NCBI GenBank assembly: GCA_011390415.1
Contig: JAABSL010000077.1
Coordinates: forward strand, 1 to 33,311
Source: Desulfobacteraceae bacterium
GTDB taxonomy: Bacteria; Desulfobacterota; Desulfobacteria; Desulfobacterales; Desulfosalsimonadaceae
DNA length: 33,311 nt
Direction of reading: 5' to 3'
The translations under genes were made by a program, and so were the position numbers. Positions within the stretch are counted from its first letter, which is position 1, and each line of letters begins with the position of its first letter. Positions 27,306 to 33,023 of the stretch are shown in pieces. A model generated the notes under the pieces. It was given only the letters and a program-made list of their open reading frames with translations. It was not told where the DNA came from and made no database searches.

Positions 27306-27349
27306 CAAAAAAAATAAAAAAGCCCGGATCCGAAAAATCGGACCCGGGC
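27306..27349 (-). terminator. rho-independent terminator of the micropeptide transcript
   Basis: On the minus strand a 12-base GC-rich stem (27349-27338 with 27333-27322, one wobble) with a 4-base loop is followed by a long T-rich tract to 27306. It lies 53 bases beyond the stop of the 37-residue peptide. Confidence 0.9.
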
Positions 27350-27402
27350 GAAGGGTTTTAAGCATGGCTTTAGAGTGACGGATGACGTTTTTCAGCAACC
27401 GG

Positions 27403-27516
27403 TTATTCTGTTACAAAGTCCTCTCCGAGAAAGTTGGTTCGCATGTTGCTGAGTACTTTTTTAAGTTCAGCAATAATTTCGTCAAAATCTCTGATAATAA
27501 TTTTTTTGATTTTCAT
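27403..27516 (-). CDS. 37-residue peptide of unknown function under sigma-54 control
   Basis: An ATG at 27516 with a GGAGG five bases upstream (27526-27522) opens a 37-codon frame: MKIKKIIIRDFDEIIAELKK, then a tail ending NFLGEDFVTE. The first 25 residues should form an amphipathic charged helix; there is no signal peptide, cysteine or membrane segment. It is too short for usual gene finding, but it has a strong ribosome site, a -24/-12 promoter about 130 bases upstream and a strong terminator 53 bases downstream, so it is the only coding content of a transcript of about 330 bases. The sigma-54 activator gene lies directly upstream on the same strand. It could be a regulator, a modified-peptide precursor, or a minor reading of a small RNA. 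Confidence 0.6.
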   Translation of the reverse strand: MKIKKIIIRDFDEIIAELKKVLSNMRTNFLGEDFVTE

Positions 27517-27648
27517 GATTTCCTCCATTTTAAATGACTGTTTTTTAGGCATGGCGCTTTTTTGTCGGTTTTTTTAATTTTTGATCCGGTCGGATGGTTT
27601 CCTTGCTGAAGCACTTTCCGGCTGGATCGTTATCTGCTCAATAAACAA

Positions 27649-27664
27649 TACAAACATCGTGCCA
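27649..27664 (-). promoter_or_regulatory. sigma-54 promoter (-24/-12)
   Basis: The minus strand reads TGGCACGATGTTTGTA. The -24 half TGGCACG is perfect and the -12 half is TTGT in place of TTGC, at exactly the required spacing. Transcription would start near 27638 and run into the micropeptide gene. Confidence 0.8.
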
Positions 27665-27683
27665 TGTTTTTTAAAGTCATGAC

Positions 27684-27698
27684 AAATAATTGTTATTT
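27684..27698. promoter_or_regulatory. palindrome upstream of the sigma-54 promoter
   Basis: AAATAA-TTG-TTATTT is a perfect inverted repeat 20 bases upstream of the -24 element. It may bind an accessory factor or the activator, though activators usually bind further upstream. Confidence 0.35.
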
Positions 27699-27801
27699 AA
27701 GGATAAATTTAATAAAGGAATGTGCTGCGGCGTAAACCTGAAAGGAAAATCATGCAGGCTGTGTACAGGGGATGTGCATAGCGCGTACAGGCGGTTGAAA
27801 T

Positions 27802-29289
27802 CTATTCCACCACATCTCCTTTCCAGTCCTGAATATATTTTTTAACGGTTCGGCGGTCCAGGCCGGTTCGGCGGGCCACCTCCTCAAACGTCTGGTGCCG
27901 CTGATACAGCAGGTAGCAGTAGCCGGAAGTCAGCTGGTAGGAATCAATATTGCCCTGATCAATGCCGTTTATCAGGGTCTGGGCCAAATCCAGATCAACG
28001 GCCGCTTCGTCGCCGGCGTACCCGCCCTTTAAAAAAATCCGGCGGACGCATTGTTCCAGTTCCCGGACATTGCCCGGCCACAGATATTCCGGGCCGACAC
28101 TGGAATCAATGGTATTTCGAATTTTAACCGTGAGTGTTGAAGAGGGTCGGCCGATGAGTCTGGCAATGGTAATGTCCAGCAGCCGGTCAAGTTCTGACGC
28201 GTCTTCGGCCATACGCTGGCGCAACGGCGGAACAACAATAACATCGGAACAGAGCCGGTAATAAAAATCGTCACGGAAGATGCCTTCACCGCGCAGTTTT
28301 TTTAACGGCCGGTTGGTGGCTGTGATGACCCGTCCCTCAAACCGGTTCTTTTTCTGACTGCCCACCGGGGCAAACTCCCGTTCCTGAAGCACCTGGAGCA
28401 GTTTTATCTGGATCGGCTTGGAGATTTCCCCGATTTCATCCAGCAGGATGGACCCATAGGGGCTGCACTGGTCGAACACCCCCTGATAATTGTCAATGGC
28501 ACCGGTAAAAGCGCCTTTCCGATGCCCGAAAAGGGCGGATTCGATCAGGGTTTCCGGAAATTGCGATAAATTCAGCGATACAAACGACCGGGTAAAGCTT
28601 TCTTCAAATGTTTTTTTTCGTTTGTCCAGGGGGATGAATCCGGACCGGCCGATGGCAAGAGCGGCCGTGCCCTTGCCGGTACCGGTTTCGCCGAGCAGCA
28701 GGGTGGAAAAATCCTCCATCTTATTCCATAAATACCGGTTATAAAAATCAATATCATGGGTGAAAATATTGTTCCATAAATTGCGGCGCAGCGATTTCAT
28801 GCAGGCGCTGCCGCCCACCAGACTGTTTTTGATGAAGTAAAACGCCCGTCGCATTTGAAATCCAAGGGCAAAATACCGTCGGGCCAGGTCTTCTGTGAAT
28901 CCTTTTTGCATTAAGGTCGCAATGGCGTCATTTAAAAAAGGAATTTTGACCGGCGTATCCCCGTGATGGATCTGATCTTGAATTAGCTGGTCGAACTTAT
29001 CCTTAAACCGGTAAAAGACCTCGAAGAGAAAGGCTTTCTCAACCAGTTCACGATCTTTTCCGTCATAATAGGTAACATTGGCTTTCCCGTTGCGCTCAAA
29101 ATTTGCAAACCATGCGGCGATTTTGTCCACCATTTTATTGATCCGCACGGATTCGGAAGCTGCGGGTGATACGCCGGCTATCCGGATATCGATCTCTGCG
29201 CGTTCATCACTAAACGGGTTGATAAACGCGGCCCGGCAGACTTCGGTCAGGAATTCTTTTTCTTCGGAATTTAATTGTGTTTTTGCCAT
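27802..29289 (-). CDS. sigma-54-dependent transcriptional activator (enhancer-binding protein)
   Basis: This 495-residue AAA+ activator has a non-standard N-terminal domain (about 1-175) with no receiver, GAF or PAS signature that I can recognise. The central domain has Walker A GETGTGKG (200-207), an intact sigma-54-contacting GAFTGA (259-264), Walker B ILLDEIG (281-287), the FRDDFYYRL arginine-finger region (338-346) and WPGNVREL (404-411). A Fis-type helix-turn-helix lies at about 467-486 (FEEVARRTGLDRRTVKKYI). It should open sigma-54 holoenzyme complexes. The only sigma-54 promoter I see nearby is just downstream, before the 37-residue peptide gene, making that the likely target. The input signal is unknown. 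It is not linked to a kinase. Confidence 0.92.
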   Translation of the reverse strand: MAKTQLNSEEKEFLTEVCRAAFINPFSDERAEIDIRIAGVSPAASESVRINKMVDKIAAWFANFERNGKANVTYYDGKDRELVEKAFLFEVFYRFKDKFDQLIQDQIHHGDTPVKIPFLNDAIATLMQKGFTEDLARRYFALGFQMRRAFYFIKNSLVGGSACMKSLRRNLWNNIFTHDIDFYNRYLWNKMEDFSTLLLGETGTGKGTAALAIGRSGFIPLDKRKKTFEESFTRSFVSLNLSQFPETLIESALFGHRKGAFTGAIDNYQGVFDQCSPYGSILLDEIGEISKPIQIKLLQVLQEREFAPVGSQKKNRFEGRVITATNRPLKKLRGEGIFRDDFYYRLCSDVIVVPPLRQRMAEDASELDRLLDITIARLIGRPSSTLTVKIRNTIDSSVGPEYLWPGNVRELEQCVRRIFLKGGYAGDEAAVDLDLAQTLINGIDQGNIDSYQLTSGYCYLLYQRHQTFEEVARRTGLDRRTVKKYIQDWKGDVVE

Positions 29290-29469: not shown

Positions 29470-31137
29470 TTAATATGTCTCCGGTTCGTCAGAAAGATTT
29501 AAATATACAGATGGTGGGATGCCCAGAAGACGCAGTACCTCTATGTGGATTTCATGCAGGCCCTTTAAGGTCTGTTTTACCAGATGCTCTTTGATAAATA
29601 TTTGTGATACGTGAACGTTTCGGAATAAATAACGCAGGTTGTTCCAGGTCGGGGCGGCGGTTTTCATTTTTTGAGGAAGGATCGGCAGATCCTCAATGGA
29701 CTCGGCTGCCATTTGCTTACGAACCGCTCTTTCTATCAAGCTGATCACCATTAATGCCACAAAATACAAAAAAGTGATGGCTTCAATGCGGGAGGATTTT
29801 TCAAGAAAAACCGGCGCAATTTCCAATACGGATTTTGTTGTGTTGAAACGTTTTTCCAGGCGCGGCTGCTGTTTATAAATACACAGGACCTCAGTGCATT
29901 CTTCTTCTGTATTGGTAATTAACGGGAATGTCCCGTCTGACAAAGCCTGCTGATCAATTGCGGCTTGGTTTCGTTGCCATTTGAGTTCATAGGTGATCTT
30001 TGTATAATCTTCATAAATGCTGTTTGGTCCCGGTCGGCCAGGGGATATCTTCTTTCTGTACGGAGTTTTATGCTCAAGAAGTTCAATATCGATTAGCCCT
30101 TTGACACTTTTAATTGCTTTGGCGACTGCGGCTTCGATCTGATTTCGGGTTTTGAGCTTGTAGCGGTTGAGTTTTTCGGCAAGCTTTCCCAAACTGGTTT
30201 CAGCATTGGCAAGTCGGCGCTCACGAGTCTTTTTATCTTGTTCTGCTTTGGCCGTACTCAATATCCAGACGAGCCGATACCCTTTTTCGGTGGGTCCGGC
30301 CTCAAATGTATAGAAACTATGCTCCATCGAGGGTTTTCGATTATCCGGCACATTATAGGCCGGTTGCCATTGGACCTGGCCATTTGCAAGCTGTTGCGAA
30401 AACGGCTTGAGAATGGATCGGTTTTTAGGCACTACGGTAATAAAATAACCGCTTTTTTGATGGATGTGATCCAGATTATCTTCGCTGCAAAGCTTGCAAT
30501 CAGCGACATAGATAAAATCTGTTTTATCCAGCATTTGTCGTAGTTGCTCCCAATTGGGGATATGGGTATTGTCGTCGGTTTGGTTGCCGTCAAAAAGATT
30601 GAAGCTTAGAGGAATATGGCCGTCATCGGTGATATTGAGTCCGAATACGAGTTGCAGACAATCTGGCCGGAAATCTTTATTGTGTCCGTGGCACAACTGT
30701 ATGGCCTCCGGGTCTTGATTCTCATAACGACCTTTGAAGGTGACCGTGGTCGAGTCATTATGAATTTTATTGACTTCCAATTGATGAGCCTTAATGGCAT
30801 TTGCCGCCAGATCAAGCATCAATTCGTTCCGGTTGGATTTATACAGGCGATCCAGGCTTCTGCCCAGACAATCATCATTGTATTTTTTGGCTTCTTGTGT
30901 TTTTTCGCCGATGCCGTCAAAATAATCAGTAGCCCATTCGGAAATTTTGTAAAGGGGATTGGGGGAATTAATAATATTAAAAACCATCAGGCACAAAGCG
31001 TCCGCGGGCGCCACACTCATTTGAGGTGTCTTTGGAATGTATTTTTCAAAAAGCTGATTCAAAGAAAGTTGGTCCATATAGTGTGTGATCAAAGGTTTAA
31101 CGTCGAGCATGATTGCTTTTGAGTCGATATTGTCCAC
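29470..31137 (-). mobile_element. IS1634-family (IS4-like) transposase gene, apparently intact
   Basis: The 555-residue DDE transposase begins at a GTG preceded by the strong GAGGAGGG. Residues 1-115 match the DUF4277-like N-terminal domain. The catalytic residues are probably Asp128 in HNDSTTVTF, Asp213 in YVADCKLCSEDN and Glu428 in YKQQPRLEKRF. No stop or frameshift interrupts it, so the element could be active. I could not define terminal inverted repeats or target duplications by eye; the ends lie somewhere in 29290-29469 and 31138-31284. It separates the sigma-54 activator from the radical SAM gene, all three on the same strand. Confidence 0.9.
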
Positions 31138-31877: not shown

Positions 31878-33023
31878 TTATCCGATTAGTTTGGGTGCAA
31901 TTCTTGAATGATATATCCGCTCCATTGATTTCAGGATGCCCGGATTTCTCTGAACACCCAGAATACAGTTCTTACACATATCTATTCGGCCGTTGTTCTG
32001 GTGACGGCGGAAGGTGACATGCTTCTCATTGTTCCAGATGGCATCAAAAGAATTTTTAATTATGTTTCCATAAACATAATTGTTAATAAATGGACAGGCC
32101 ACAAGATTGCCATAAGGGTCTACTGTAGTTTCACAACGTTCGCAATAGCATTTGTTGTGTGCGATCAATCCGGTATGCAGACTTTTTGTTGACCTCCCAT
32201 CGATATTTATCGTGACAATATGAATGTCTCCGCAGTTCTTATATTTTTGTTTGATATCTTTAATCTGTTGCTTGATAATTTGCGCCCCTGGTGCATCAAC
32301 TAAAATTGATTTACCTTTGTTTATGTAAAACGGATCCGGTTTCAGTCCGCCAATCAAGGACCGTTCAATACTTTTCGGGAAAAATTCACCGGCATATTCA
32401 AAATGGATTTCATCAAATTTCATTTGAATAGCATACTCGACGAGTTGCTCAAGGATGTTAAAATTAAACCGTGAAACCGTGGTGTTACAAATTAACCGGG
32501 GAAATCTTTTTCCGTTTTTTAGAGTCCGCATATTGGCAATAGTATCTTCAACTCTGTTTGATGCGCCTTTTCTACCCCGGATCTGGTCTTGTTTCTCTCC
32601 GACCCCATCGGTTGATATATAGATGTAGGTCAGGTTCTCAACCATGGCGGCAACCAACTCATCATCCAGTCCAATTTGATTGGTTGGCATATGAATGATG
32701 CAGTTCTTTTCTTTGATATATCGCAGGAGCGGCATTAAAAGATTTTTTCGCAGCAGGACATTGCCACCGAAAATCTCGAAATTGCGAACACCGGCCTGCA
32801 CGAGTTTGTCTATGATGTCCTTCCACTCTTTCAAACCGATTTCTTTTTTTTTTTCTTCCTCCTGTGGACGTTTCCAGCAACTGCAGGTCTGGCAGTGCGA
32901 ATTGCAGCGGTAGGTTAGAAAAAGTGTTCCAACTGTCGGTGCAGCTCTATGAAAGTTGATTTCTCTCTTTACTAATTGGGAAAAATCCTTTGTTAAAACT
33001 TTAATTCCTTTGGTGAGTTCCAT
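31878..33023 (-). CDS. radical SAM protein with SPASM domain
   Basis: This 381-residue enzyme has the radical SAM cluster motif CNSHCQTC (Cys40, Cys44, Cys47) with an extra CSCW just after it. The usual GGEP loop is FGGNVLLR (85-92), with Asn replacing Glu. A SPASM region with auxiliary-cluster cysteines follows (Cys292, Cys294, Cys297, Cys310 in NLVACPF, Cys350 and Cys353). SPASM enzymes often modify ribosomal peptides or activate enzymes; here the substrate is unknown. Codon use is more AT-rich than in the left of the window, and mobile-element debris flanks it, suggesting horizontal transfer. The start carries a 25-base duplication that places AAAGGGA before the ATG. No partner gene is visible within the window. 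Confidence 0.88.
   Translation of the reverse strand: MELTKGIKVLTKDFSQLVKREINFHRAAPTVGTLFLTYRCNSHCQTCSCWKRPQEEEKKKEIGLKEWKDIIDKLVQAGVRNFEIFGGNVLLRKNLLMPLLRYIKEKNCIIHMPTNQIGLDDELVAAMVENLTYIYISTDGVGEKQDQIRGRKGASNRVEDTIANMRTLKNGKRFPRLICNTTVSRFNFNILEQLVEYAIQMKFDEIHFEYAGEFFPKSIERSLIGGLKPDPFYINKGKSILVDAPGAQIIKQQIKDIKQKYKNCGDIHIVTINIDGRSTKSLHTGLIAHNKCYCERCETTVDPYGNLVACPFINNYVYGNIIKNSFDAIWNNEKHVTFRRHQNNGRIDMCKNCILGVQRNPGILKSMERIYHSRIAPKLIG

Follow-up and report, generated by a model that had tools for sequence, protein, structure and literature searches.

Small proteins produced under a dedicated enhancer-binding protein (EBP) have precedents in the phage-shock system, whose small proteins PspB, PspC and PspG depend on sigma-54, but these are larger membrane proteins with no visible sequence relation to the peptide described here, which lacks a long hydrophobic segment. 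In layout, our locus resembles the single-target sigma-54/EBP units, such as the mannose-transport case of Lactobacillus plantarum (cited in PMC4641369), with a one-component EBP carrying the GAFTGA motif, a -24/-12 promoter, an upstream activator site and a target adjoining the EBP gene; here, however, what is controlled is a 37-residue protein whose family is undescribed, and the EBP has no recognised sensor domain. The same arrangement of EBP, adjoining target and activator site is known in a sulfate reducer, since the sigma-54 regulome of Desulfovibrio vulgaris contains many one-component EBPs with adjoining targets and upstream activator sites, and the passages describing it (PMC4641369) make no mention of an orphan micropeptide target. 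Passages of a 2025 survey (PMC12316311) state that EBPs are most numerous in the Desulfobacteria and that, in some phyla, the targets of sigma-54 are enriched in beta-oxidation genes. A last point of comparison are the Pfa-type secondary lipid synthase clusters, among them the K and S types found in sulfate reducers (PMC3098273); the passages on them do not mention sigma factors. In relatives of our organism, fabD and PfaD-ketosynthase genes share the activator site and promoter arrangement described below and adjoin paralogous EBPs, whereas the genome studied here shows no such cluster and a peptide is controlled instead. No EBP-peptide unit is described in the open-access passages of these three papers (PMC4641369, PMC12316311, PMC3098273), which is weak evidence of novelty, and neither did we find there a description of a link from an EBP-family motif to fatty-acid or Pfa-type synthase genes.

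The stretch of DNA analysed (hereafter the window) comprises the 33,311 nucleotides of contig JAABSL010000077.1 from a Desulfobacteraceae bacterium. An earlier note on it had described a near-consensus -24/-12 promoter, a ribosome site, a 37-codon frame and a terminator directly downstream of an activator gene, and all of these were found where it had placed them. The unit, entirely on the minus strand, begins with the gene of the 495-residue EBP (27802-29289), followed by the predicted activator site TGCACATCCCCTGTACA (TGCACA-N5-TGTACA, 17 bp, 27762-27778), the sigma-54 promoter TGGCACGATGTTTGTA (27649-27664, 9/10 core bases) and a predicted leader (27517-27638) whose start near 27638 is placed by the position of the -12 element. 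A GGAGG ribosome-binding site (27522-27526) precedes the ORF of the 37-residue protein MKIKKIIIRDFDEIIAELKKVLSNMRTNFLGEDFVTE (27403-27516 including the stop, with the ATG at 27516), and an intrinsic terminator (27306-27349), with a 12-bp stem of nine G-C pairs and a T-run (27349-27322), separates it from arfB (27183-26758). The predicted message is monocistronic, of about 330 nt, and the genome encodes RpoN (E 6e-63). Directly upstream of the EBP there is an IS1634-family transposase (29470-31137, minus strand), at whose insertion synteny breaks, since the genes upstream of the EBP differ in close relatives. Beyond it, on the same strand and 2.6 kb upstream of the EBP start, lies a gene for a radical SAM/SPASM protein (31878-33023) with a weak relationship to NirJ1 (75.8 bits, the cut-off being 650).

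A translated search of related genomes retrieved five orthologues of the peptide, with identities of 82% (G005), 79% (G003), 58% (G021), 54% (G024) and 41% (G015), and all five share a contig with an orthologue of the EBP. The loci repeat the same order of EBP, sigma-54 promoter, GGAG-type ribosome site before the ATG and 37-38 codons, with one extra gene on the opposite strand between EBP and promoter in G003. The earlier note had staked its proposal on finding frame and promoter beside homologous activators, and both, together with the activator site, are conserved beside the EBP orthologues of these five other genomes. When the window, G003 and G005 are compared, the ORFs are 82-89% identical; the leaders share 38-52% and the trailers 21-68%, and what persists in the trailers is mainly the terminator stem. 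Close pairs within the group have dN/dS values of 0.03-0.15, with fewer amino-acid replacements than a random placement of the same substitutions would produce (P <= 0.006 in four close pairs: window-L104, window-L105, L104-L105 and L099-L100). The contrast between the ORF and its flanks and the low dN/dS argue for selection on the protein, and by these sequence comparisons the 37-codon ORF is taken to encode a real protein under purifying selection. The 37-codon start is correct, because the extra in-frame codons that the window has 5' of this ATG lack conservation.

The promoter considered alone could be due to chance, since the pattern TGGCACN5TTG, matched once in the whole window, is expected 0.26 times in shuffled sequence. 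This doubt is removed by its conservation (8-9/10 core bases in the five relatives) and by the paired activator site, which the earlier note had not mentioned and for which the chance expectation in the window is 0.00. The site lies about 100 bases upstream of the promoter and its half-sites are 11 bp apart, one helical turn. In the six orthologous loci TGTACA is always found 103-113 bp upstream of the -24 element, and in five of them it is preceded, at a spacing of exactly 11 bp, by a partner half-site, TGCACA or TGAACA; such half-sites number three in G005, and G015 has TGTACA only. A possible third half-site, TGCATG (27751-27756), read from the sequence a further 11 bp on in the window, is also present in L105 and partially in other loci. 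From established sigma-54 biology, the EBP would bind these TGTACA repeats and activate the promoter.

The EBP itself has a Sigma54_activat domain (PF00158, E 1.7e-40) with the GAFTGA motif, and its C-terminal helix-turn-helix gives a weak match to HTH_23 (E 0.0015, below the Pfam cut-off) in a region strongly conserved across the family. Residues 1-190 have no Pfam match, including to the receiver, PAS, GAF, CARF and V4R regulatory domains. The structure model of this N-terminal domain (about residues 1-185) is all-helical (pLDDT 93), and comparison with PDB folds gave nothing better than E 0.2 in Foldseek and Z 5.9 over 59 residues; a profile search of PDB sequences was equally devoid of significant matches (best E 0.075). 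A faint resemblance to the TetR-type acyl-CoA regulators (FadR, DesT, EthR) is far below significance and was given no weight. In a tree of 49 EBPs, the six linked to the peptide fall in one fully supported clade of 14 members. No local peptide was detected for the other eight, and in several of their genomes the activator site and promoter precede fabD elsewhere.

A way to see how far this regulatory arrangement extends is to search genomes blindly for its pattern, with the reversed pattern as control. TGTACA-N85..112-TGGCAYN5TTG gave 26 matches versus 4 for the control in 36 genomes of the family, and a stricter version gave 27 versus 1 in 389 genomes of the order. The single match of the stricter pattern in the window's genome is the peptide promoter, so there the description of the promoter as private to the peptide holds; it does not hold in some relatives, where the same arrangement also precedes fabD or Pfa-type genes. 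Besides the peptide, the recognisable targets are mostly fabD, clustered with SDR reductases and FabA-like dehydratases, or a PfaD/ketosynthase protein of about 1,580 residues, while matches inside genes or before unrelated genes are probably due to chance. The same kind of switch therefore appears to control fatty-acid-type synthesis genes elsewhere. Among genomes at least 90% complete, the comparison of EBP presence with the fabD promoter element gave 8/9 versus 0/2 (P=0.055), a co-occurrence that is suggestive but not significant. The search made here found no fabD-type cluster in the window's genome or in G021 (99% complete); both retain EBP and peptide, which argues against the peptide being strictly an accessory of the fabD/Pfa pathway. 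In G003 (L226, contig C34), site and promoter, including the direct repeat of half-sites, precede a gene whose product, judged by eye, resembles an ATPase of the BadF/BcrA type (2-hydroxyacyl-CoA dehydratase activator).

Paralogous EBPs show related layouts, and many of their divergent sigma-54 promoters also have an upstream TGTACA, at -102 to -127. At L106 (G003:C39, 14000-30000) there is a sigma-54 promoter on each side of a paralogous EBP, each followed by two hydrophobic micropeptide ORFs with ribosome sites (METLLTIGHIVVYAILWIA and MEILTILTNVVYCFTLGWIV; METLLTFGHIVFYAILWIA and MESLLTFGHTIIYALFRII). At L167 (G015:C244, 1077-1480), the divergent promoter of another paralogue is followed by three similar ORFs, the first of which, METVMKI[TGA]YIAFYAVLWII, carries a TGA in frame at a position that is glycine in its relatives; this could be a nonsense mutation, a sequence error or recoding. 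In L071, L107, L165 and others, paralogous EBPs adjoin a sigma-54 promoter whose downstream gene encodes a VIT/VWA-domain protein that putatively bears a signal sequence.

The peptide has an AlphaFold-predicted helix at residues 11-30 (mean pLDDT 75), and its conserved portion is the N-terminal two thirds and not the C-terminal tail. Searches of the window peptide and four relatives against Pfam and NCBIfam gave nothing meaningful (best Pfam Tsc35, E 0.03, below cut-off), and the peptide had no match in the PDB. An origin from a mobile element or phage was rejected, as tblastn of plasmids and phages gave no match. The peptide is confined to a few genomes of one order, and a profile search across the phylum (395 genomes sampled) found it in the window's own genome and G003 only. 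With a profile built from the six orthologues alone, distant peptides of 36-38 residues were recovered in G161 (E 1.5e-6), G011 (1.9e-5), contig C22 of the window's genome (1.4e-4), and G008 and G005 (2.4e-3), the next matches being at E 0.2 or worse. Like the orthologues, they open with a short beta-like segment, followed by an acidic-aromatic turn and a helix in which E17-L18 (numbered as in the window) is invariant; in the G011 copy no clear ATG could be recognised as the start. Four of them, in four genomes, lie ahead of an acyl-CoA dehydrogenase gene, and those inspected have a terminator to themselves and a promoter that looks sigma-70-like; the G161 peptide precedes a gene that on reading its sequence resembles a CoA-disulfide reductase. 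Specifically, the second family peptide of the window's genome, MNEICIEVKDYEDILPELSEALAQLNDDLIGDELLWI (L108, G000:C22, 15864-15974, minus strand), has a glutaminyl-tRNA-synthetase-like gene on one side and, on the other, an acyl-CoA dehydrogenase gene whose G008 orthologue has a rubredoxin-like tail. These distant relatives have neither sigma-54 promoters nor an adjoining EBP, and for this reason the functional link to acyl metabolism is one of guilt by association.

Taken together, we consider that the locus is probably a sigma-54 regulatory unit in which an EBP activates a small protein tied to acyl or lipid metabolism. The EBP, a one-component protein whose sensor domain is helical, would bind TGNACA-N5-TGTACA about 100 bp upstream of the -24/-12 promoter and switch on a monocistronic message of about 330 nt, which would encode a 37-residue, mostly helical cytosolic protein of a small undescribed family. 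Activation of the unit by the EBP and translation of the peptide are strongly supported at the level of sequence. The product would most likely bind an enzyme or regulator of acyl-CoA/lipid metabolism; that its target lies there, as the gene neighbourhoods suggest, is a tentative assignment, somewhat doubtful as it stands.

The most serious rival on function is that the peptide feeds back on its own EBP through the helical N-terminal domain, making a self-limiting switch. The linkage of EBP and peptide in six genomes, a sensor domain without a recognised fold and the lack of any other target of the stricter pattern in the window's genome would all fit, but the eight EBPs of the same clade without a detected local peptide and the distant peptides without an adjoining EBP do not, and we regard this reading as unlikely. 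Alternatively, the peptide could be secreted as a signal, or could be a precursor that undergoes modification, for which the radical SAM/SPASM protein would be a conceivable maturase. Peptide signals under EBP control are an attractive idea and the candidate maturase gene is near and on the same strand, but the IS1634 transposase stands between it and the EBP, inspection by eye shows neither a signal peptide nor a double-glycine leader nor a cysteine-rich core, and conservation falls in the N-terminal two thirds rather than in the tail, leaving a signal or modified peptide quite improbable. Maturation by a radical SAM enzyme was rejected specifically, since no homologue was present within the retrieved stretches around the five orthologous loci and the linkage is therefore not conserved. 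Sigma-54-driven small RNAs exist (Qrr, GlmY, CrcZ), and the compact transcript, its strong terminator and a fold whose stability somewhat exceeds that of shuffled sequences (z -2.3, to which the terminator contributes much) would suit a regulatory RNA with an incidental or dual-function ORF. The earlier note had raised this option beside those of a signal and a regulator, but constraint acts on the codons and not on leader or trailer, which diverge freely save for the terminator stem, and there is no Rfam match, so that this reading is very improbable.

Returning to the EBP-activated small protein, a sigma-54 promoter is opened only at the cost of ATP spent by its activator, and a unit devoted to one 37-residue protein therefore implies that under some specific signal the product is important. 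Genes of this kind can escape annotation, as no family model covers the peptide. Here a defined regulator, its predicted binding site, the promoter and the product are found together and conserved in six genomes, and an activator motif can be proposed for a large EBP family of sulfate reducers. More speculatively, and with the odds rather against it, one EBP family of the Desulfobacterales may be specialised in switching on tiny proteins (the 37-residue helical one and, at paralogous EBPs in two genomes, tandem hydrophobic ones of 19-23 residues) whose role, coordinated with Pfa-type lipid synthesis, would be to regulate the membrane or the enzymes that handle lipids or acyl-CoA.
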